Shown here one piece after another: positions 4,808 to 14,317 of a DNA stretch of 64,000 nt; within the stretch, counting starts at the first letter, position 1; each line of letters starts with the position of its first letter. Origin of the DNA: Olivibacter sp. SDN3 (lineage in GTDB: Bacteria; Bacteroidota; Bacteroidia; Sphingobacteriales; Sphingobacteriaceae). The notes beneath the pieces were generated by a model. The model had not been told where the DNA came from. It did no database searches and saw only the letters and a list, made by a program, of their open reading frames with translations. Location of the stretch: contig NZ_CP060497.1 of NCBI RefSeq assembly GCF_014334135.1, positions 3,844,001-3,908,000 of the forward strand, in the 5' to 3' direction. A program made the translations under genes and the position numbers.

Positions 4808-5143
4808 TCATATAAAATGGCGCTGTGTACATTATAATAATAAAAATTTTTTAACCCTACTTAGAAGCGTCTGAGTGAAAGTGTTGGCCGATTTTCAATA
4901 AATCTTTTGGAAATATGAAGACGTTTCGAATTTTCTTGATGATTTGAATTTTCTTCACAACTAAGGAACGTTGTTTTTCAGCAGTGCTTGGAAGGTATAG
5001 ATACACGTGATAAGGCGTTCTGTTGAGGATACTTCAGGATCTATGCTATTTTAGGTATAACCATTTGGCGATTAAAGCAAAGAAATAGGTAAAGAAAATT
5101 CTTTTGTTCTACATAATGTTTGTTAAAATTTGCATCTTGCAAC
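4808..5143. other. intergenic region, no gene seen
   Basis: AT-rich, with no convincing ORF or terminator. Near its end, TACATAA at 5110-5116 matches one half of the palindrome in front of nanA (5928-5944), suggesting weak autoregulation of the GntR gene. Confidence 0.5.
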
Positions 5144-5974: not shown

Positions 5975-6145
5975 ATGAAGAAATACTTTTCTATTTTATG
6001 GTTAATTAATTCGCTATACCGAAAAGCAAAAGGTGTGTTACGCAGCACAGCATATTTTCGGGTTTATGCATTACACTGTGAATTCGATGGTGAAACCCAG
6101 CTGGATATCACTAACGTCTCACTAAATTTTATAGCACACATATGA
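5975..6145 (+). CDS. small ORF overlapping nanA by four bases
   Basis: An uninterrupted 56-codon frame begins with ATG 47 bases after the promoter -7 element. Its TGA overlaps the nanA start as ATGA, the usual arrangement for translational coupling. The product begins MKKYFSILWLIN and has no recognised domain; the start is basic then hydrophobic, but the remainder is not membrane-like. It could be a leader peptide, a real small protein, or a chance frame in the leader. Confidence 0.35.
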   Translation: MKKYFSILWLINSLYRKAKGVLRSTAYFRVYALHCEFDGETQLDITNVSLNFIAHI

Positions 6146-7068
6146 AGATAGAAAAAATGGAAGGCTTAGTTGCCGCAACATTCTCTAATTTTGACAGCAA
6201 AGGAAGTCTAAAACTTTCAGATATTCCTAGCCTTGTCGATAAATTATATAGAGATGGCTTGAAGGGTGTTTTTGTTTGTGGAACAAATGGTGAAGGGCCA
6301 AATTTAACCTTAGCAGAACGGATGTTGGTTGCCGAAAGATACGTTAATGCAGCAAAAAATAAATTGAAGGTTTTTGTGCACGTAGGTCATAGCGCTATCG
6401 CTGAAGCAAGGGAGCTCGCAATACATGCTGAGCAGATCGGTGCAGATGCTATTTCCGCCGTTGCAGCCTTCTATTTTAGGCCCGTGGATACACAAAATTT
6501 AGTGGATTGCATGGCCCAAATAGCGAATGCAGCACCTACACTTCCTTTTTATTATTATCATATCCCCACGCTAACTGGCGTAGGAATGGATATGGTCAAA
6601 TTTTTGGAATTGGCAGAAGAGAAAATTCCTAATCTAGCTGGTATAAAATATACCGCTTCTACGCTATATGAATATCAAGCATGCTTGAACTATAAAGGGG
6701 GGAAGTACGACATGCTGTTTGGTTACGATGAAATGCTGTTGCCTGCATTGGCATTGGGAGCTAAAGGAGCTGTTGGTAGCACATATAATTTTGCTGCGCC
6801 TCTTTATTTGAGAATGATGGATCTTTATAAGTACGGGCAATTGGAGAAAGCCCAGGAATTGCAATATCATCTAGTACAGATGATACGTGCATTTGTTAAG
6901 TATTCGCCAATACCTGCACAGAAAGCTATTATGCAGATGTTTGATTTAGATATGGGGGGGTGTCGATTGCCACTTCAGGGGTTAAGAGACGAACAAAAAG
7001 AAACACTGAAGAATGAGTTAGACAACCTAGGTTTTTTTCATTTACTAAAAACAGGTCTTCGAATTTAA
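6142..7068 (+). CDS. nanA: N-acetylneuraminate lyase
   Basis: Class I aldolase of the dihydrodipicolinate synthase superfamily, splitting N-acetylneuraminate into N-acetylmannosamine and pyruvate in the cytoplasm. 308 residues is the normal length. The carboxylate-binding GTNGEG motif is at 47-52, the catalytic Tyr region YYYHIP at about 137-142, and the Schiff-base Lys in GIKYT at about 169. Sialate lyases rather than dihydrodipicolinate synthases carry the YYYHIP pattern. It is followed after about 25 bases by the sialic acid mutarotase gene, which supports the assignment, and preceded by a GntR regulator and operator. Confidence 0.88.
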   Translation: MKIEKMEGLVAATFSNFDSKGSLKLSDIPSLVDKLYRDGLKGVFVCGTNGEGPNLTLAERMLVAERYVNAAKNKLKVFVHVGHSAIAEARELAIHAEQIGADAISAVAAFYFRPVDTQNLVDCMAQIANAAPTLPFYYYHIPTLTGVGMDMVKFLELAEEKIPNLAGIKYTASTLYEYQACLNYKGGKYDMLFGYDEMLLPALALGAKGAVGSTYNFAAPLYLRMMDLYKYGQLEKAQELQYHLVQMIRAFVKYSPIPAQKAIMQMFDLDMGGCRLPLQGLRDEQKETLKNELDNLGFFHLLKTGLRI

Positions 7069-7092
7069 ACGGAAACCAATAAGTTGAAGAAT

Positions 7093-8199
7093 ATGCGGTA
7101 CCTAAAACCTTATACACTAATATTTATGCTCATCGTTGGAGGGATGAATTTATTAGCACAGGAGAAATCTAGCCGTAACTATTTTCAGTGGTCGGAATTA
7201 CCAGCCGTTCCAGATAAGCATGGCTTTGCGGGCGCCTTTGCTGGTGTATCGAATAATTGTCTGCTATTGGCCGGTGGTGCAAACTTTCCAGACGGAGGAA
7301 TTACTGGGGGAGGTGCAAAAAAGTGGCACCAAAAGATCTACGTGTTGGAAGGACCTACCGGCAAATGGAAGAAGGTTGGTAAGCTTGAACGGCCACTGGG
7401 ATATGGAGTTTCTGTGGATTATGATGGAGCACTAATTTGTATAGGTGGTGGTAATGAACAAGTGCATTCGGCTAATGTTTTTTTACTTCGTTATAAAAAG
7501 GGTATAATTGAAGAAAAAACTTTACCAGATCTACCAAAACCTTTAGCCAACGCCTGTGGTGCATTGCTTGGTGATAAATTGTATGTATGCGGAGGCACAG
7601 TAGGGCCGGATGTGTTTGAGGCAGTAAACGATTTATATGTATTGGATTTAAAGGCCCCCGGTAACGAATTGAAATGGAAAACCTTAGATCCGCTACCCGG
7701 AGTAGGTCGTATGCTGGCTGTTGCCGGTGCCCGAGACGGCGCTTTTTATGTATTCAGTGGGGTTTCACTTAAAAAAAATGCAGTAGGAGAAATACAACGA
7801 ACTTATCTACAGGATACTTACCGTTACATACCTACAAAAGGTTGGGAACGAAGAGCTTCTTCGCCGGTACCGGTTGCAGCGGCTCCTGGTCCTGCCTATC
7901 CTGCAGGAGAAAGTCTTCTGCTTGTTTTCGGCGGCGACGATGGAGCGTTGGCCACAAATACGGAATCATTAGGAAGCGTACATCCGGGCTTTTCTAACCA
8001 AGTCTTGGCATACAATACAGTCACAGATGCCTGGAGCAGCGTCGACACGATATCTACAGCTTCAAATTCAAGTTTCCCGGTTACAACTACAGCTGTGTTG
8101 TGGAGGGGTAATATAGTAATTCCAAATGGAGAAACCCAGCCCGGCGAACGTACTCCGGGAGTAATAGTGGCATGTCCAATAAAGGTGCCTTTACAATAG
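7093..8199 (+). CDS. nanM: N-acetylneuraminate epimerase/mutarotase, kelch-repeat (cyclically permuted type)
   Basis: Exported beta-propeller enzyme that converts alpha- to beta-N-acetylneuraminate before uptake. 368 residues from the ATG at 7093; the TTG three codons earlier is less likely. A signal peptide spans about residues 1-22, ending near LLAQ. Kelch-type blades follow, each with the hydrophobic/Gly-Gly pattern: LLLAGGANFPDGG, LICIGGGNEQVH, LYVCGGTVGPDVFE, FYVFSGVSL and LLVFGGDDGA. The order of blades matches the cyclically permuted mutarotase group found in Bacteroidota. It pairs with nanA; no sialic acid transporter or sialidase is seen in this window. Confidence 0.82.
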   Translation: MRYLKPYTLIFMLIVGGMNLLAQEKSSRNYFQWSELPAVPDKHGFAGAFAGVSNNCLLLAGGANFPDGGITGGGAKKWHQKIYVLEGPTGKWKKVGKLERPLGYGVSVDYDGALICIGGGNEQVHSANVFLLRYKKGIIEEKTLPDLPKPLANACGALLGDKLYVCGGTVGPDVFEAVNDLYVLDLKAPGNELKWKTLDPLPGVGRMLAVAGARDGAFYVFSGVSLKKNAVGEIQRTYLQDTYRYIPTKGWERRASSPVPVAAAPGPAYPAGESLLLVFGGDDGALATNTESLGSVHPGFSNQVLAYNTVTDAWSSVDTISTASNSSFPVTTTAVLWRGNIVIPNGETQPGERTPGVIVACPIKVPLQ

Positions 8200-8599: not shown

Positions 8600-9925
8600 A
8601 TGGCGTATACTATTAAACCATCCGAAGGCAAACTGGGTATATTGATTCCTGGTTTGGGAGCTGTTGCTACGACCTTCATTGCAGGTGTTGCAGCTATTAA
8701 TAAAGGCTTGTCAAAGCCTGTCGGATCGCTTACTCAGATGGGTAATATTCGTTTGGGGAAACGAACAGAAAATCGGTATCCATTGATTAAGGATTTCGTG
8801 CCGTTGGCTGGCCTGAAAGATGTTGTTTTTGGAGGATGGGATATTTATAAAGATAATGTTTTTGAAGCTGCAACTAACGCTAAGGTGTTGGAACCTTTGT
8901 TGTTGCATGCAGTGAAAGATGAGCTGGAGGCAATTAAACCTATGAAGGCGGTGTTCGATAAGAATTTTGTTAAGAATTTAGATGGCGTGCACGTGAAGGA
9001 ACAGACACACCGTCGGGAGTTGGCTGATGCACTCTTAGCAGATATTGAAGAATTTAAGTTACATAATGACTGTAGCCGTTTGGTGATGATATGGTGCGGT
9101 TCAACGGAGAAATATATTGACGACTGCGATATTTTTCAAACGTTAGATGCTTTTGAACTGGCTTTGGACAATAACGACCAACGTATTTCTCCTAGTATGC
9201 TTTATGCGTATGCTGCTATCAAGTCGCATGTGCCATTTGCCAATGGAGCACCAAATTTAACTTGTGATATCCCGGCGATGATTGAATTAGCACAACTCAT
9301 GGAGGTGCCAATTGCTGGCAAGGATTTTAAAACGGGACAAACCCTAATGAAAACTATTCTTGCACCCGGTTTGCAGGCTCGTGCATTAGGTGTAAAAGGA
9401 TGGTTTTCTTCCAATATCTTAGGAAATAGAGACGGTTTGGTACTGGATGATCCCGAAAATTTTAAAACAAAGGAAGTGTCCAAATTGAGCGTGTTGGAAG
9501 AGATATTAAATCCTGAAATTAATCCAGAACTGTATGGTGATCTATACCATAAGGTCAGAATTAATTATTATCCGCCACATGGCGACAATAAAGAGAGCTG
9601 GGATAACATCGATATATTTGGCTGGCTGGGATATCCTATGCAGATAAAAATCAATTTTCTTTGTAGAGATTCTATATTGGCAGCACCTATTGTGTTAGAT
9701 TTAGCTTTGTTTTTAGACTTAGCTCACCGTGCCGGTATGTCGGGTATCCAGGAGTGGTTGTCGTTTTACTTAAAATCTCCGCAAACAGCTCCCGGATTAA
9801 AGGCGGAGCACGACATCTTTAAGCAGCTGATCAAATTGCAGAACACGTTGAGACATATTATGGGCGAAGATCTGATTACACATTTAGGCCTTGATTACTA
9901 TCAAGAATTAGTGGATAGTTTGTGA
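8600..9925 (+). CDS. ino1: inositol-3-phosphate (myo-inositol-1-phosphate) synthase
   Basis: NAD-dependent cyclisation of glucose 6-phosphate to inositol phosphate, the first step of inositol synthesis. 441 residues, the length of bacterial forms. The N-terminal Rossmann segment GILIPGLGAVATTFIAG (about 13-29) binds NAD. Central motifs include LMKTILAPGLQARALGVKGWFSSNILGNRDG with a conserved Lys and Asn-Asp, and the C-terminal half has DIFGWLGYPMQIKINFLCRDSILAAPIVLDL, characteristic of this enzyme. It opens a run of six same-strand genes ending at 14317 whose products fit inositol phospholipid assembly. In gut Bacteroidetes a cluster containing this gene makes inositol lipids (established knowledge). 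Confidence 0.93.
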   Translation: MAYTIKPSEGKLGILIPGLGAVATTFIAGVAAINKGLSKPVGSLTQMGNIRLGKRTENRYPLIKDFVPLAGLKDVVFGGWDIYKDNVFEAATNAKVLEPLLLHAVKDELEAIKPMKAVFDKNFVKNLDGVHVKEQTHRRELADALLADIEEFKLHNDCSRLVMIWCGSTEKYIDDCDIFQTLDAFELALDNNDQRISPSMLYAYAAIKSHVPFANGAPNLTCDIPAMIELAQLMEVPIAGKDFKTGQTLMKTILAPGLQARALGVKGWFSSNILGNRDGLVLDDPENFKTKEVSKLSVLEEILNPEINPELYGDLYHKVRINYYPPHGDNKESWDNIDIFGWLGYPMQIKINFLCRDSILAAPIVLDLALFLDLAHRAGMSGIQEWLSFYLKSPQTAPGLKAEHDIFKQLIKLQNTLRHIMGEDLITHLGLDYYQELVDSL

Positions 9926-9986
9926 AAAAACAAACATGATTATGTTTAAGGCATACCAACACAGGTGTACCTTCATCTTTTTTTTC

Positions 9987-9994
9987 TAGATTTG
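9987..9994 (+). promoter_or_regulatory. candidate internal promoter (-7 element)
   Basis: TAGATTTG matches TAnnTTTG and lies 28 bases before the nucleotidyltransferase start, in the 96-base gap after ino1. No good TTG is seen at the expected spacing, so this is weak. It would allow the five downstream genes to be expressed apart from ino1. Confidence 0.35.
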
Positions 9995-10021
9995 TGCGGT
10001 TTAATAATTTTATAAGAAATA

Positions 10022-10744
10022 ATGGATTTTGCAATAATAGCTGCGGGGGAGGGGTCGCGTTTGGCTAAAAGTGGCTATCCTTTTCCAAAACCCTTGGCGA
10101 GGCTTCAAGGGGAGACCTTGATCGAAAGATTAATGGATATATTTGATAGCTATGGTGCAAATGCCGTTAATATCATTATAAATGAAGACTCAGAAGCATT
10201 AGCCGATTACCTGTACAGTTTTTGTTCCGAGAGGCGTATACGAATTATTAAAAAGACAACAGCGAGCTCCTTGCATAGTTTTCATGAACTGCTAAAAGAA
10301 ATCCCCTCGTTTGACGAACTTTGTGTCACTACAGTAGACACTATTTTTAAAAAAGAGGATTTTGCCGCATATTTGAAATTTTTTAACGAGCGTCAAGATT
10401 TAGATGCATTAATGGCCGTTACACCATTTGTAGAAGATGAAAGCCCACTTTATGTGCAAATAAACCATAAAGGGGAAATTACTGCTTTTACTGATAAGCA
10501 AAATCAAGAGGGAAGTGAAAATATCTTGGTTTCCGGAGGGGTTTATGCATTGCGTAAAAGAGCATTGCTTTGTGTTGAAAAAGCTATCGCCAGTAATATA
10601 GAGCGTATGCGTAATTATCAGCGGCTATTGTTAGAAGAACAGCTAAAGGTTGAAGCATTTACATTTGAAAAAATAATAGACATTGATCATCTGACCGACC
10701 TGCATACGGCTGAAGCATGGCTGAATGAGTTGAAAATGTCTTAA
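10022..10744 (+). CDS. sugar/inositol-phosphate nucleotidyltransferase
   Basis: Rossmann-type nucleotidyltransferase of 240 residues that would couple NTP to a phosphorylated acceptor. The nucleotide-binding signature AIIAAGEGSRLAKSG is at 4-18 and the conserved Lys lies in PFPKPL at about 20-25. The Asp that binds the metal is probably in VTTVDTIF, and the C-terminal region carries FTDKQ and a conserved GGVYAL. Placed between inositol-phosphate synthase and a CDP-alcohol phosphatidyltransferase, it most plausibly makes CDP-inositol or a related activated polyol, as the cytidylyltransferase does in the di-myo-inositol-phosphate pathway of thermophiles. Substrate is inferred from context only. 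Confidence 0.75.
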   Translation: MDFAIIAAGEGSRLAKSGYPFPKPLARLQGETLIERLMDIFDSYGANAVNIIINEDSEALADYLYSFCSERRIRIIKKTTASSLHSFHELLKEIPSFDELCVTTVDTIFKKEDFAAYLKFFNERQDLDALMAVTPFVEDESPLYVQINHKGEITAFTDKQNQEGSENILVSGGVYALRKRALLCVEKAIASNIERMRNYQRLLLEEQLKVEAFTFEKIIDIDHLTDLHTAEAWLNELKMS

Positions 10745-10753
10745 CCAAACAAC

Positions 10754-11653
10754 GTGAAAAATATAGAGATTATAGGAATCCAAAGGGGAAAAACTTTTTC
10801 TCCGAACCACATTGGCAATGATGAAGCTATATTTCAGTTAACTATGCAGGCACTCAGGGAAGAGGGCTGCAAAGTGACTATTTTAAACGAGGAAACGTTT
10901 TTATCTGGAGCCGATGTCACCAAAAGCATGGGTATTGTTTCCATGGCACGTAATAAAGATGCCGTCAAGAAACTTCAACAACTAGAACGGGACGGAGTGC
11001 CTGTAGTTAATTCTGGTTTTGGGGTGGAGAATTGTTTCCGTACAAATATGACTAGTTTGTTGATTCAACACCAGATACCATACCCTAAAAGCAAGATTGT
11101 ATCTACAGATAAAGTTGAGGATAATTTATTTGATGGATTTTCTGAGTTAGGGGTGTGGATTAAACGAGGTGATTTTCATGCTATTCATAAAGAAGATGTA
11201 ACTTTTGCTTCTTCTAGACAGGAAGGGAAAGAAATTTTGAGAGAATATGCACTGAGAGAAATTCCAGATGCAGTTCTTTCCGAACATTTGATCGGCGACC
11301 TCGTTAAATTTTATGGTGTGCGAGATACGGATTTCTTCTATTGGTTTTATCCATATGAGCACAATCATCATAAATATGAGCATTATGAGCAGTTCAACGG
11401 TAATTTAGTTTACAATAATTTTGATGAAGCATATTTGAGGCAGGTTGCTTTAAATGCTGCGGAGGTTTTAGATGTTTATGTGTTTGGTGGAGATGCCATC
11501 GTCGATAAAGCAGGCAACATACACATTATTGATCTGAATGATTGGCCTAGTTTTGCTCCCTGTAGAGATACAGCGGCTCCGTATATAGCACAATTACTAT
11601 TAAAGAAATTTGAGTATAAGACTGATGGAATCATTGCACGCGAAAAACAGTAA
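10754..11653 (+). CDS. ATP-grasp family enzyme of the inositol-lipid cluster
   Basis: 299 residues starting with GTG. The C-terminal two-thirds shows the ATP-grasp pattern: a nucleotide-binding Lys in GVWIKRGDFH (about 133-142), the linker LSEHLIGDLVKFYGV (about 175-190), and the metal site GGDAIVDKAGNIHIIDLNDWPSF (about 244-266) with the Asp-x-Asn pair. An N-terminal Rossmann-like half precedes it. ATP-grasp enzymes form carboxylate-amine bonds (RimK type) or phosphorylate inositol phosphates (ITPK type). Here the cluster suggests action on inositol phosphate or on the lipid headgroup, but nothing in the sequence settles this. It overlaps the next gene by 29 bases, so the two are probably translated together. 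Confidence 0.7.
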   Translation: MKNIEIIGIQRGKTFSPNHIGNDEAIFQLTMQALREEGCKVTILNEETFLSGADVTKSMGIVSMARNKDAVKKLQQLERDGVPVVNSGFGVENCFRTNMTSLLIQHQIPYPKSKIVSTDKVEDNLFDGFSELGVWIKRGDFHAIHKEDVTFASSRQEGKEILREYALREIPDAVLSEHLIGDLVKFYGVRDTDFFYWFYPYEHNHHKYEHYEQFNGNLVYNNFDEAYLRQVALNAAEVLDVYVFGGDAIVDKAGNIHIIDLNDWPSFAPCRDTAAPYIAQLLLKKFEYKTDGIIAREKQ

Positions 11654-12569
11654 AGCAGCTGATAAAACTGTTTTTGAAAATTCTCTAAAATCCAACGACA
11701 CTGAAGAAAAGATCGATATATATTTTTATCGTCCGATAGGGCTTCGCATAGCTTTATTTTGCCAGAAAGTTGGGTTGACACCCAATGCAGTTACCATCAT
11801 CAGCATTTTCTTTGGCGTGGCGGCAGGTATTCTCTTCTATTACCCTTCATTATCTATTAACTTTATAGGAATGCTTTCGTTGATGTTTGCCAATTCTTTG
11901 GATAGCGCAGATGGGCAGCTGGCACGTTTAACAAATAATAAGAGTAGATTCGGTAGAATTTTAGATGGTTTTGCAGGCGATTTTTGGTTTGCATCTATCC
12001 ATATTGCTATCTGTTTGCGTTCTATGAACGAAGGTTGGTCTGCAGCAATATGGGTATTAGGTATACTTGCGGGAGTTTCACATATGGTACAATCTGCCAT
12101 GGCTGACTACTACCGAAATGTGCATTTGTTTTTTATTAAGGGTACCAGCGGTAGTGAGCTCGACAATAGTAAAGATTTGCAGGCAGAGTACGATCGGTTA
12201 ACTTGGTCAAACAATGCTTGGATGAAGTTTGTCTTGAAAGGTTATCTGAATTATACAAAAATGCAGGAGCGTTTTTCTCCAAAATTACAGCGGCTTTTGG
12301 AGGTTATCCGCGCCGATTTTAGCAATGGCTTACCGGCCAGTCTCATAAAAGACTTTAGAGAGCAGAACAAGCCCTTAATGAAATACACCAATATCGTTCA
12401 ATTTAACACACGGGTAATTTTTCTTTTTCTATGGTTGATCATTGATTATGCTTGGATATACTTCTTCTTTGATTTGTTTATTCTGAATCCCATTCTTATA
12501 TACATGTGTAATAGACAGGAGAAAGTTAGTACTCATTTTTATAATCGTATCAACGAATATAAAGCTTAG
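11625..12569 (+). CDS. CDP-alcohol phosphatidyltransferase (probable phosphatidylinositol-phosphate synthase)
   Basis: Integral membrane enzyme that joins a CDP-activated group to an alcohol, releasing CMP. 314 residues from the ATG at 11625. A soluble N-terminal extension of about 35 residues precedes the helices. The catalytic signature DSADGQLAR is followed by eight residues, then GRILD and GFAGD. The first three Asp are in register with the family pattern DxxDGxxAR(x8)GxxxDxxxD, but the last Asp comes one residue late (D-GFAG-D). Several more membrane helices follow. With ino1 upstream, an inositol phospholipid synthase is the likely role; the acceptor and donor are not proven. Confidence 0.82.
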   Translation: MESLHAKNSKAADKTVFENSLKSNDTEEKIDIYFYRPIGLRIALFCQKVGLTPNAVTIISIFFGVAAGILFYYPSLSINFIGMLSLMFANSLDSADGQLARLTNNKSRFGRILDGFAGDFWFASIHIAICLRSMNEGWSAAIWVLGILAGVSHMVQSAMADYYRNVHLFFIKGTSGSELDNSKDLQAEYDRLTWSNNAWMKFVLKGYLNYTKMQERFSPKLQRLLEVIRADFSNGLPASLIKDFREQNKPLMKYTNIVQFNTRVIFLFLWLIIDYAWIYFFFDLFILNPILIYMCNRQEKVSTHFYNRINEYKA

Positions 12570-13607
12570 ATGGCAAGCAAAATATATAAGGTTCTTTTTT
12601 TTGTCATAGGCATGACCACATTGTGTTACATGGTGTATGCCTTGGGCGTGGATGTCATCTGGGAGAATATAAAAAAAACCGGTTGGTGGTTTTTACCGGT
12701 TATCGGCAGCTGGCTCATAATTTATATATTAAATGCCATTGCTTTTAAAGCGATTATTCAAGAGCCGACCATTCCGGCGAGCAATTTACCTTTCCTGTCG
12801 GTGCTGAAGCTGACGATAACGGGGTATGTCATCAATTATATTACTCCGTTTGTAGCCTTGGGCGGAGAACCTTACAGGATTATGGAACTCAAACCCCGTT
12901 TAGGTGTTCAGAAGGCAAGTTCCTCGGTACTCCTGTATAGCCTCATGCACATGTTCTCCCATGTGATTTTTTGGTTAGCCTCCATTATCCTGATATTGCT
13001 TTATGTTCCTGCTAATACCATAATGATAACAGGATGCTCCGTCATGTTTATTACCGGCGTTGTTTTATGTTATTGGTTTGGTAGGATTTACAAAAAAGGT
13101 TTTACTTTAAGTATATTTAAAGCGCTGGCGAAAATTCCCGGATTAAAAAAGAAAGTTGGGTCTTTTGTTGCAGAAAGACAGGATAGCTTACGCGAAATTG
13201 ATCACCAGATTACTGAACTTTATGCAAAACGCAGGGGTCGCTTTTGGCAATCACTCAGTTTTGAATTTATAGCACGTGTGGTGGGATGTATTGAAATATA
13301 CTGTACGGCAAGAGCCATTGATTTAAATATGTCCGTTGTACAGTCGCTTATTGTAAGTTCCGGCTCCTCTTTATTTGCCAATCTGATTTTTTTCTTTCCG
13401 ATGCAGTTAGGCACACGGGAAGGAGGGCTTGCTTTAGCTTTAAAGAGCGTTGGGATGCCAGGTGCTGCAGGGATTTTCATTGGTATTATTATGCGGATAA
13501 GGGAATTGGTCTGGATTATTATCGGACTTTTTTTAATGAAACTAGCTAAGCCTGCTTTAAAAACTGCAGAACAGGTGGAAAAAATTGAAACGAATACAGA
13601 GATTTAA
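12570..13607 (+). CDS. flippase-like membrane protein (lysylphosphatidylglycerol synthase TM-domain family)
   Basis: 345-residue integral membrane protein whose ATG directly follows the stop of the phosphatidyltransferase. It carries the pfam03706-type pattern: a first helix, then GYVINYITPFVALGGEPYRIMELKPRLGVQKASSSVLLYSLMHM (region about 90-135), and the C-terminal FFPMQLGTREGGLALALKSVGMPGAAGIFIGIIMRIRELVW. In MprF this domain moves modified phospholipids between leaflets, and stand-alone copies often sit beside lipid-synthesis genes. Here it may translocate the inositol lipid or a glycosylated derivative (inference). Confidence 0.82.
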   Translation: MASKIYKVLFFVIGMTTLCYMVYALGVDVIWENIKKTGWWFLPVIGSWLIIYILNAIAFKAIIQEPTIPASNLPFLSVLKLTITGYVINYITPFVALGGEPYRIMELKPRLGVQKASSSVLLYSLMHMFSHVIFWLASIILILLYVPANTIMITGCSVMFITGVVLCYWFGRIYKKGFTLSIFKALAKIPGLKKKVGSFVAERQDSLREIDHQITELYAKRRGRFWQSLSFEFIARVVGCIEIYCTARAIDLNMSVVQSLIVSSGSSLFANLIFFFPMQLGTREGGLALALKSVGMPGAAGIFIGIIMRIRELVWIIIGLFLMKLAKPALKTAEQVEKIETNTEI

Positions 13608-13615
13608 TAAAGAAT

Positions 13616-14317
13616 ATGGTAAAAGGTGTTTTAATTGATTACGGTGGAACAATAGATACTAATGGGAGGCATTGGGCAAATGTGATATGGGAAGCGTATA
13701 AGAACACTAAATTGGACGTTGAAAAAGAACAGTTTTTACTTGCCTACGCACATGGCGAAAGATCACTAGCTATTCAGCCTATTATTAAGCCTTTTCATAC
13801 ATTTGACGACGTACTGCGGTTAAAAATAGCGAAACAGTTCGATTTTTTGAAACTGGATGAGCAATACCAGGATAAAATAGACGAAATTGCTTCTATTTGT
13901 ATGGAGTTAGTACTTAAAACAATAAATCATGCAAAGCCTATTTTAGAAGTACTTGCCGAACGATACCCCCTTGTACTTGTCTCTAATTTTTATGGAAATA
14001 TCCATGCTGTACTAAATGATTTAAATATCATACACTATTTTAGTGATATTGTAGAATCTGCTGTGGTAGGCGTACGTAAACCTAACCCAGAAATCTATCA
14101 ACTGGGCGTCGAACGCATAGGCCTTTTAGCACAAGATTGTGTGGTGGTTGGTGATTCTTTTAAAAAAGATATCGTTCCGGGTAAGGCAATAGGTTGTCAA
14201 ACAATTTGGATAAATGTAGAAGGGATTGAAGAAGACTTCAATGAAGCGGAAACAACAGCTGCCGATATTCAAATAACAGATTTTGATCAAATTCCCGCGG
14301 CACTGATTGCTTTATAG
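13616..14317 (+). CDS. HAD-superfamily phosphatase
   Basis: 233 residues, haloacid dehalogenase fold with a helical cap. Motif I is DYGGT at 8-12, with the nucleophile Asp8 but Gly at the +2 position usually held by the general acid. Motif II is in LVLVSNFYG, motif III Lys is in VGVRKPNPEIY, and motif IV is GDSFKKD. Other active HAD phosphatases also carry a DxG form, so activity is plausible. It is the last gene of the inositol cluster, 8 bases after the flippase-like gene, and could remove the phosphate from phosphatidylinositol phosphate or from inositol phosphate (inference). Confidence 0.8.
   Translation: MVKGVLIDYGGTIDTNGRHWANVIWEAYKNTKLDVEKEQFLLAYAHGERSLAIQPIIKPFHTFDDVLRLKIAKQFDFLKLDEQYQDKIDEIASICMELVLKTINHAKPILEVLAERYPLVLVSNFYGNIHAVLNDLNIIHYFSDIVESAVVGVRKPNPEIYQLGVERIGLLAQDCVVVGDSFKKDIVPGKAIGCQTIWINVEGIEEDFNEAETTAADIQITDFDQIPAALIAL

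Follow-up and report, generated by a model that had tools for sequence, protein, structure and literature searches.

A conserved ATP-grasp protein in a candidate inositol-lipid operon of Bacteroidota

Six genes on one strand in Olivibacter sp. SDN3

The operon lies at positions 8600-14317 of the window, which is the whole stretch of 64,000 nucleotides that was analyzed (Olivibacter sp. SDN3, assembly GCF_014334135.1, contig NZ_CP060497.1, positions 3,844,001-3,908,000). As the first-pass annotation had stated, six open reading frames follow each other on the forward strand (Table 1), with gaps of at most 9 bases after the second gene: 9 nt separate NTP from GRASP, GRASP and CDPOH overlap by 29 nt, CDPOH and LPG_TM abut (0 nt), and 8 nt lie between LPG_TM and HAD. 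The gap between MIPS and NTP is 96 nt. Scans for sigma-70-type promoters (24, versus 21.4 in shuffled sequences) and terminators (6 versus 4.1) showed little excess, and no tRNA genes were found between positions 5000 and 18000 of the window.

Table 1. Genes of the operon, with positions in the window and family matches of the encoded proteins
Gene	Predicted product	Position	Strand	Length (aa)	Family matches and remarks
MIPS (ino1)	myo-inositol-3-phosphate synthase	8600..9925	+	441	PF07994 3.9e-101, PF01658 2.6e-33
NTP	NTP transferase; putative CTP:inositol-phosphate cytidylyltransferase	10022..10744	+	240	PF12804 2.9e-13, PF00483 3.3e-08
GRASP	ATP-grasp protein; putative inositol or inositol-phosphate kinase	10754..11653	+	299	NCBIfam rimK_fam 4.4e-08; GTG start
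CDPOH	CDP-alcohol phosphotransferase	11625..12569	+		PF01066 1.7e-11; ATG start at 11625
LPG_TM	LPG_synthase_TM membrane protein (pfam03706), flippase-like	12570..13607	+	345	PF03706 2.2e-30, sole Pfam family
HAD	HAD-superfamily protein	13616..14317	+	233	PF00702 4.6e-16; motif I DYGGT

No Pfam family matched the GRASP of the window at E<=0.01. As it weakly matches the NCBIfam RimK family, and a profile built from related sequences picks up ATP-grasp structures, its original label as an ATP-grasp protein is correct. The nucleotidyltransferase had been taken to point to an activated-inositol route, and homology supports a CDP-inositol-type cluster for inositol lipids. All 21 aligned NTPs matched NF041135, a model of inositol-phosphate cytidylyltransferase/DIPP synthase, and likewise two sugar nucleotidyltransferase models. 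Their profile matched 4jd0, which we take to be an inositol-phosphate cytidylyltransferase, at 8.8e-09, seventh in the list and behind sugar enzymes; NTP thus fits sugar nucleotidyltransferases no worse than inositol ones.

CDPOH passes the gathering score of PF01066 (45.2 bits, with 22 required) and carries the first three aspartates of its motif (DxxDGxxAR...GxxxDxxxG), while the fourth, presumably the catalytic base, is missing. This position is glycine in all 117 cluster-type CDPOHs, that of the window included, and the next residue is Asp in 100, Asn in 16, and Ala in 1; the set includes one locus with its GRASP elsewhere in the genome (L149) and one cut by a contig end, in which no GRASP was seen (L151). 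In a midpoint-rooted tree of 33 of 124 sequences, the loss maps to the root of the clade associated with GRASP (97/88). HAD has the Asp nucleophile in the window, and Gly instead of the usual phosphatase Asp at position +2 in all 75 members of the 80-locus set described below that have a HAD.

A close precedent for an NTP and a CDP-alcohol transferase acting on inositol phosphate, as predicted here, is the bifunctional IPCT/DIPPS of hyperthermophiles (NF041135, 4mnd), in which the two are likewise found as a fusion. By analogy, CDPOH could couple CDP-inositol to inositol phosphate, as in di-myo-inositol-phosphate synthesis, and the product would be a soluble phosphodiester instead of a lipid. 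The CDPOH profile does match the DIPP synthase structure 4mnd (5e-05), and NF041135 weakly matches both window proteins, at 28.2 (NTP) and 37.4 bits (CDPOH) of a cut-off of 580. However, AF2299 (4o6m, 4.2e-12) and PIP-synthase chimeras score above 4mnd, although choline/ethanolamine phosphotransferases score below it. The operon also encodes the flippase-like LPG_TM, and Mla-type lipid-transporter genes occur in 8 of 117 related loci. We therefore regard a soluble product as highly improbable. Unlike in IPCT/DIPPS, GRASP stands between NTP and CDPOH, even in a three-part fusion.

Conservation, pairing, and fusion of the ATP-grasp gene

The same gene order recurs across Bacteroidota, so the grouping of the six genes is not due to chance. 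Among 80 loci found through GRASP, a set that cannot show how often the cluster goes without it, NTP was present in 78, CDPOH in 79, and HAD in 75, and 73 held all four. NTP and GRASP were common to 78 loci, in 77 of which CDPOH was present too, and the two genes were directly adjacent in 77. A further set of 26 loci from 25 genomes, 3 of which repeat members of the first set (L013/L091, L012/L092, and L065/L090), contained NTP in 26, CDPOH in 25, and HAD in 25; 10 additional loci hold all four genes. In a phylum sample searched with CDPOH instead, GRASP was found in 15 of 19, with the line for a strong CDPOH match at 330 bits, placed once scores had been seen to drop from 337 to 174 bits, and with two fragment matches (G207 and G425, E ~3e-4) left out of the 15.

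The first-pass annotation had made its reading depend on the NTP and ATP-grasp genes being conserved next to ino1. For the pair, this refutation fails, as the two genes hold together; for ino1 it partly applies, as MIPS lay within the locus in just 47 of the 80, some loci being cut by contig ends. LPG_TM was not found in 49 of the 80 loci and is thus not essential everywhere; its role as a flippase is plausible. Further neighboring families each recurred in 34 of these loci at most.

In three loci, NTP and GRASP are fused into a single protein (L162, 541 aa; L163, 525 aa; L164, 513 aa), and in a fourth (L161), NTP, GRASP, and CDPOH share one frame of 820 aa. These four fusions are spread over three genera. 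In one genome (G446), NTP and GRASP have stayed together more than 1 Mb away from CDPOH, HAD, and MIPS. GRASP looks integral to the cluster, and its pairing with NTP, its fusions, and its conservation suggest a core step, at CDP-inositol formation or adjoining it, and not the further headgroup step proposed from the first reading.

Minus its ATP-grasp gene, the cluster had been put forward in 2022 by Heaver et al. (PMC9246714), as the alternative, Bacteroides vulgatus-like inositol-lipid cluster and without functional proof; the same paper reports PI-dihydroceramide in B. vulgatus and P. veroralis. Regular membership of an ATP-grasp gene is our addition: the words “ATP-grasp” and “flippase” do not occur in the main text of that paper. 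Likened by gene content rather than by sequence, the two clusters share MIPS, NTP transferase, CDP-alcohol transferase, and HAD together. In the B. vulgatus locus tags given there (BVU_RS13095-RS13105-RS13115), those of NTP and transferase are separated by a single tag, at the place that GRASP takes in the window; none of the 80 loci came from a B. vulgatus record. In contrast to the published cluster, the window has LPG_TM between CDPOH and HAD, and GRASP is a regular and sometimes fused member. With glycine in place of the fourth Asp, the window CDPOH also lacks the search motif of that study, GX3DX3D.

Following this proposal, a Kennedy-like scheme could be complete without GRASP: MIP and CTP would give CDP-inositol, which with DAG would give PI, with HAD as the PI-dihydroceramide synthase and GRASP in an accessory or regulatory role. 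The roles given to NTP, CDPOH, and HAD and the lipids reported by Heaver et al. (PMC9246714, main text) speak for such a scheme, and Gly at position +2 of HAD fits a non-phosphatase role. Against this, GRASP occurs about as regularly as NTP and CDPOH across the loci studied, recurs in the phylum sample searched with CDPOH, has been fused to both proteins, and has an invariant metal triad. We consider a merely accessory or regulatory GRASP unlikely.

Kinase-like residues on a RimK-like scaffold

Residues were counted in 121 GRASP sequences, 118 of which are distinct, as three loci were counted twice. The Mg triad D247/D260/N262 is invariant in all 121, as are K185 and D260. At the equivalents of the latter two positions, all 18 RimK-type proteins examined have Arg and Glu, whereas human and maize ITPK have Lys and Asp, the same as GRASP; K185 was aligned on the ITPK lysine by a low-confidence global alignment (probability 61.5) and by motif. 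GRASP shares with ITPK (PF05770) the ATP-grasp superfamily, and every GRASP counted has the DxN metal motif and the central-strand Lys of ITPK, while the central-strand Arg and Glu-x-Asn expected of RimK-type proteins are replaced throughout. Two loop histidines were also considered as a mark of ITPK and dropped, being present in 113 and 111 of the 121 sequences and therefore not universal.

The protein as a whole is nearer to RimK. Over its whole length, the GRASP profile aligned with RimK-type proteins over 248 columns (E 9e-12) and with ITPK over 47 (E 3.6e-06), an uneven comparison because the ITPK profile was built from two fragments only (170 and 165 aa). Early hhalign runs favored ITPK over a single RimK, and the order was reversed with a richer RimK set; we therefore call the scaffold RimK-like, despite the ITPK-like Lys and Asp, and base the kinase reading on the residues, the pairing, and the genomes without MIPS. 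The NCBIfam rimK_fam model matched 28 of 31 GRASP members, Pfam RimK 4, and PF05770 3 (E<=0.1), and the window GRASP reached 32.8 of the 143.4 bits required by TIGR00768 (RimK). Three of the four fusions match PF05770 at ~0.001 (~19 of 23 bits, below the gathering score), and in L163 a YheCD ATP-grasp model (0.00016) beats PF05770 (0.0011). The window GRASP had no PF05770 match, and none of the members examined was shown to exceed the Pfam cut-off; a PF05770 search of the whole genome gave no match, as did 14 controls in the same search. Against the PDB, 6 of 8 profile matches were ITPK chains, from 3 proteins (among them ITPK4 7pup, 1.1e-05, and ITPK 1z2n, 9.6e-05), and the best was 7drm (4.3e-06), which we take to be PsnB, an ester-forming graspetide ligase. 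The RimK-like whole-length profile, 7drm as best match, the rimK_fam matches, and YheCD in L163 all count against a kinase.

The main rival to a kinase is a carboxylate ligase of the RimK/graspetide type, for which the whole-length profile and the 7drm match speak: GRASP would join an amino acid or another acid to the inositol headgroup, yielding an aminoacylated or amidated inositol lipid. An amine could be supplied in 8 of the 117 loci, which all belong to another class and whose operon also encodes a class-III aminotransferase and a GFO protein resembling inositol dehydrogenase (6.3e-19 against the IolG model, below its cut-off); 4 of these carry two GRASPs. However, no GFO gene was found at E<=1e-15 in the other 109 loci, for which reason a general role of GRASP in serving such loci was rejected. 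With every further neighboring family confined to at most 34 of the 80 loci, no gene for amine or amino-acid supply is constant among them. As Lys and Asp take the place of the RimK-type Arg and Glu in all 121 GRASPs, and GRASP pairs and fuses with NTP, we find a ligase rather unlikely. Of the two options raised by the first-pass annotation, inositol phosphate kinase and amino-acyl ligation, the kinase is favored by the two catalytic residues, while whole-length similarity favors a ligase scaffold.

A predicted route from inositol to a phosphatidylinositol-type lipid

The genomes without MIPS bear on the origin of the inositol phosphate. No MIPS match was found at E<=1e-5 in 14 of 45 GRASP-bearing genomes, which is no rate, since the genomes were hand-picked, many of them for the lack of MIPS near the cluster. 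These 14 suggest that some GRASP-bearing genomes probably phosphorylate imported inositol. In 10 of them, a PfkB kinase that could make inositol phosphate lies beside the cluster, which weakens the idea that GRASP explains all genomes without MIPS. The remaining four (L101, L126, L129, and L130), 3 of them MAGs, have NTP-GRASP-CDPOH-HAD without a neighboring PfkB, with the kinase sought beside the cluster and flanking genes judged by their first residues only. In three of four congeners, MIPS is absent from the locus, and a distant one of actinobacterial type lies on another contig. A first search with Pfam gave no MIPS match in 12 of 13 genomes, 6 of which weakly match the MIPS of the window; two more genomes bring such matches to eight, and the six that were read (G901 and G907 being left out) all match the actinobacterial-type TIGR03450.

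From the gene content, conservation, pairing, fusions, and invariant residues observed, we infer a set of reactions, with their substrates, order, and product. Our tentative reading, which is quite possibly correct, is that the operon makes a phosphatidylinositol-type lipid, based on diacylglycerol and/or dihydroceramide, by a CDP-inositol route in which GRASP is an inositol or inositol-phosphate kinase. MIPS would make Ins(3)P, or inositol would be imported, and GRASP would use ATP to add the phosphate that NTP, as a cytidylyltransferase, activates to CDP-inositol or CDP-inositol-phosphate. CDPOH would then move phospho-inositol onto the lipid acceptor, HAD would strip a leftover phosphate from either the lipid or Ins(3)P, and LPG_TM may flip the product. 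MIPS phosphorylates the D-3 position, whereas ordinary phosphatidylinositol is linked through D-1, a stereochemical problem that the kinase step would solve. Counted against this pathway are Gly at position +2 of HAD, the sugar-type matches of NTP, the loop histidines that are not universal, and PfkB in 10 of the 14 genomes.

Judged by matches to family models, the predicted pathway differs from the BT-like cluster of B. thetaiotaomicron (BT_1522/1523/1525/1526). Both have MIPS, a CDP-alcohol transferase, and an inositol lipid as product (here predicted). However, the window CDPOH scores 29.8 bits against NF052561, the model of the BT_1523-type PIP synthase, with a cut-off of 350, and no PAP2 or phosphatidylglycerophosphatase domain was found among the six window proteins; PAP2_3 genes are present elsewhere in the genome.

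It is possible, though subject to doubt, that the cluster stands for a bacterial route to phosphatidylinositol that includes an ATP-grasp kinase of its own for inositol or inositol phosphate, which would combine a RimK-like scaffold with ITPK-like residues, form a module of NTP, kinase, and a transferase without the fourth Asp, and set the phosphate of the lipid linkage. Such a route would be neither the mycobacterial/BT PIP route nor the eukaryotic one, and it would also depart from the published Kennedy-like proposal; GRASP would, to our knowledge, be a bacterial inositol kinase of a new type. According to the abstract of Heaver et al. (PMC9246714), fitness in the gut is affected by the inositol lipids of Bacteroidota; one of the two pathways proposed for these lipids is still unproven. 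A conserved, fusable ATP-grasp step alters the intermediates to be expected and predicts which genes need to be co-expressed for reconstitution. It may also account for inositol lipids in species that show no detectable inositol-phosphate synthase, which could build them from imported inositol.

Organization and distribution of the cluster

The six-gene operon described in the first-pass annotation was confirmed, with all open reading frames on the forward strand and at the coordinates it had assigned (see the table). Pfam identities were clear for five of the six proteins. The third (GRASP) had no Pfam match, and was recognized as an ATP-grasp protein from weak NCBIfam and profile evidence. 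The intergenic spacings, from 5′ to 3′, are 96, 9, -29, 0, and 8 nt; the 96-nt gap thus sets the inositol-phosphate synthase gene (MIPS) apart from a tight five-gene block. Directly upstream lies a gene pair that looks like part of a sialic acid-type catabolic pathway and is probably unrelated to the operon.

Coordinates of the operon and of other features discussed in the text
Feature	Source	Position	Remarks
MIPS, NTP transferase (NTP), GRASP, CDP-alcohol transferase (CDPOH), flippase-like LPG_synthase_TM (LPG_TM), and HAD genes	Window	8600-14317 (+)	Six-gene operon
DHDPS-family gene, then NanM-type kelch protein gene	Window	6142-8199	PF24996 (3e-39) for the kelch protein
NTP and GRASP genes	Genome G446	1.56 Mb	
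CDPOH, HAD, and MIPS genes	Genome G446	0.44 Mb	
CDP-alcohol transferase gene, with MIPS and NTP-like genes adjacent	Locus L152	9069-12115	Another class; fourth Asp intact; no GRASP or HAD match
Second HAD gene copy	Locus L062	15813-16550	Nucleophile Asp replaced by Asn (NYEGT)

The distribution of GRASP is patchy but wide. With the window's own genome included in each count, 7 of 60 relatives, 17 of 201 family genomes, and 15 of 395 phylum genomes (plus two fragments) carried it; so did 39 of 295 genomes of the order to which G446 belongs. A scan of named genomes yielded at least 566 confirmed stretches, the best 80 of which were kept. Among these best 80, all found via GRASP, NTP was present in 78, CDPOH in 79, HAD in 75, MIPS in 47, and LPG_TM in 31; NTP, GRASP, CDPOH, and HAD occurred together in 73, and NTP directly preceded GRASP in 77. 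Several of the absences are due to contig ends; one locus (L100) has no HAD over 5.4 kb downstream of CDPOH, and another (L141) neither CDPOH nor HAD over 3.4 kb downstream of GRASP. Twenty-six further loci from 25 genomes, three of them repeats of named loci, contained NTP (26), CDPOH (25), HAD (25), LPG_TM (24), and MIPS (18).

As loci found through GRASP cannot show whether it is always present, the phylum sample was searched with CDPOH instead. Strong matches (>330 bits) were obtained in 19 of 395 genomes, 15 of which carried GRASP; these comprise all 15 GRASP genomes of the sample. Of the other four, one (G437) has a contig cut inside the operon, and three (G087, G187, and G399) had no NTP, HAD, or MIPS near CDPOH. 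The locus in L152 is a possible GRASP-free inositol cluster. Of 117 loci, 40 (L096 and L098 among them) have a PdxA-family gene close to the cluster; in 34 of the best 80 named loci it is located just upstream of NTP.

In G446, where the cluster is split, GRASP has stayed with NTP. In addition, the two are fused in a single frame in L162, L163, and L164, and L161 encodes an 820-residue fusion of NTP, GRASP, and CDPOH. These four fusions are spread over three genera, and the genus shared by L162 and L163 also has an unfused relative (L168). The pairing and the fusions argue that GRASP is part of the core, next to nucleotide activation. Adjacency itself eases fusion, however, which tempers the latter argument.

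Residues of the ATP-grasp protein and the transferase

A comparison of 121 GRASP sequences (31 aligned, 80 named, and 10 more; 118 distinct) showed R11, D23, M64, N86, K137, D148, G181, K185, Y187, G245, D247, D260, N262, P265, and S266 to be invariant. The intact metal triad (D247, D260, and N262) suggests an active enzyme. RimK-type proteins encoded in the window's genome and in other genomes of its phylum have Arg and Glu instead of K185 and D260 (18 of 18 each). Lys and Asp are found in the equivalent motifs of human and maize ITPK; only the DxN region aligns confidently with ITPK, the Lys correspondence resting on the motif and a low-confidence global alignment. In ligases this Arg probably serves the acyl-phosphate step, and the Lys of ITPK probably contacts inositol phosphate.

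A profile search of the PDB placed 7drm first (4.3e-06), which we take to be the graspetide ester ligase PsnB, followed by chains of ITPK4, another ITPK, and human ITPK1; ITPK chains from these three proteins made up six of the eight matches. The whole-length GRASP profile compares best with the RimK set (248 columns, E 9e-12), which speaks against a kinase; the ITPK profile, a thin one of two sequences, matched over 47 columns (E 3.6e-06). By sequence, GRASP thus has a RimK-like scaffold with two ITPK-like diagnostic residues.

The CDPOH profile matched AF2299, PIP-synthase chimeras, and DIPP synthase; its matches to choline/ethanolamine phosphotransferases were weaker. In all 117 cluster-type loci, the fourth Asp of the motif DxxDGxxAR...GxxxDxxxD is replaced by Gly, followed by D (100), N (16), or A (1). 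Seven homologs have no GRASP beside them: five retain the Asp (L146, L147, L152, L153, and L154), whereas Gly stands in its place in L148 and Ser in L150, which is a second copy in a GRASP genome. A 33-sequence tree, rooted at the midpoint, grouped cluster-type CDPOH with L148 and L150 in one set (support 97/88) and left all Asp-bearing homologs outside it, so that the Asp was probably lost once, coinciding with GRASP association; placement of L148, L152, L153, and L154 on their long branches is unsure. The link is suggestive but is a single event, and it did not stand out against label shuffles, 78 of 500 of which scored as low.

Inositol supply and a possible kinase step

With the window MIPS as query (E ≤ 1e-5), strong matches were obtained in 22 of 45 hand-picked GRASP-bearing genomes, weak ones in eight, and a fragment in one (G916); the remaining 14 gave none. 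All six of the weak ones that were read (L186-L191) match the actinobacterial-type model TIGR03450 (3.1e-85 to 2.5e-91), at 286-307 bits, below its cut-off of 638. This type apparently replaces the window type in G022, some Dyadobacter, and three congeners of the window organism (G001-G003); given these congeners, MIPS was apparently exchanged while the cluster core stayed. As the window MIPS detected this type at 3e-8 to 3e-10, it is likely absent from the 14 no-match genomes, which include isolates of Rhabdobacter, Runella, Dyadobacter, and Parabacteroides.

A pathway starting from free inositol needs a kinase ahead of CDP-inositol formation. Ten of the 14 genomes have a PfkB-like kinase gene beside the cluster. 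The other four loci (L101, L126, L129, and L130; one isolate and three MAGs of Parabacteroides and Tannerella) read NTP-GRASP-CDPOH-HAD, with no PfkB match nearby and seemingly unrelated flanks. Here, no kinase candidate other than GRASP was seen within the cluster; one may be encoded at an unlinked site in the genome. Incorporation of exogenous myo-inositol by Tannerella forsythia is reported in work cited in the available text of PMC9246714.

We tentatively propose, with slightly less than even confidence in the scheme as a whole, that GRASP phosphorylates inositol or an inositol phosphate and thereby supplies NTP. Two versions fit. In one, Ins(3)P would be converted to InsP2, CDP-inositol-phosphate, and a PIP-lipid, from which HAD would yield PI; this does not account for the missing Asp+2 of HAD, but some HAD phosphatases lack that residue. 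In the other, HAD would free inositol from Ins(3)P, GRASP would make Ins(1)P, and NTP would make CDP-inositol, which leaves the retention of HAD in MIPS-less genomes unexplained. The second HAD copy of L062 is, judging from its nucleophile, probably inactive.

Possible lipid variants and the published proposal

In loci of families f37 and f55, from another class, the operon also encodes an aminotransferase of class III, an IolG-like dehydrogenase (GFO; 8 of 117 loci), and an Mla-type transporter (MlaE; likewise 8 of 117). These genes suggest an amino-inositol lipid variant and outer-membrane lipid delivery. In L046, L049, L050, and L053, an operon with all three of these additions contains two GRASP genes in tandem. 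Three PAP2_3 matches, of which two exceed the cut-off, lie elsewhere in the window's genome, making a separate ceramide-type transferase possible.

Heaver et al. 2022 (PMC9246714), who demonstrated the inositol-lipid route of B. thetaiotaomicron, also proposed a different cluster for B. vulgatus and Prevotella, in which NTP transferase, CDP-alcohol transferase, and HAD genes lie near MIPS. CDP-inositol and a Kennedy-like step were suggested, by the authors' own statement without functional confirmation, and a 2023 review (PMC10191378) restates the proposal. Neither "ATP-grasp" nor "flippase" occurs in the main text of PMC9246714, and no description of GRASP was found in open-licence literature on ATP-grasp proteins with inositol lipids or Bacteroidetes phosphatidylinositol, or on inositol with CDP-alcohol phosphatidyltransferase. 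The cluster is of a kind already published but unproven, to which we add two features: GRASP, which keeps its metal triad intact and belongs to the cluster regularly, at times as a fusion, and a CDP-alcohol transferase without the fourth Asp.
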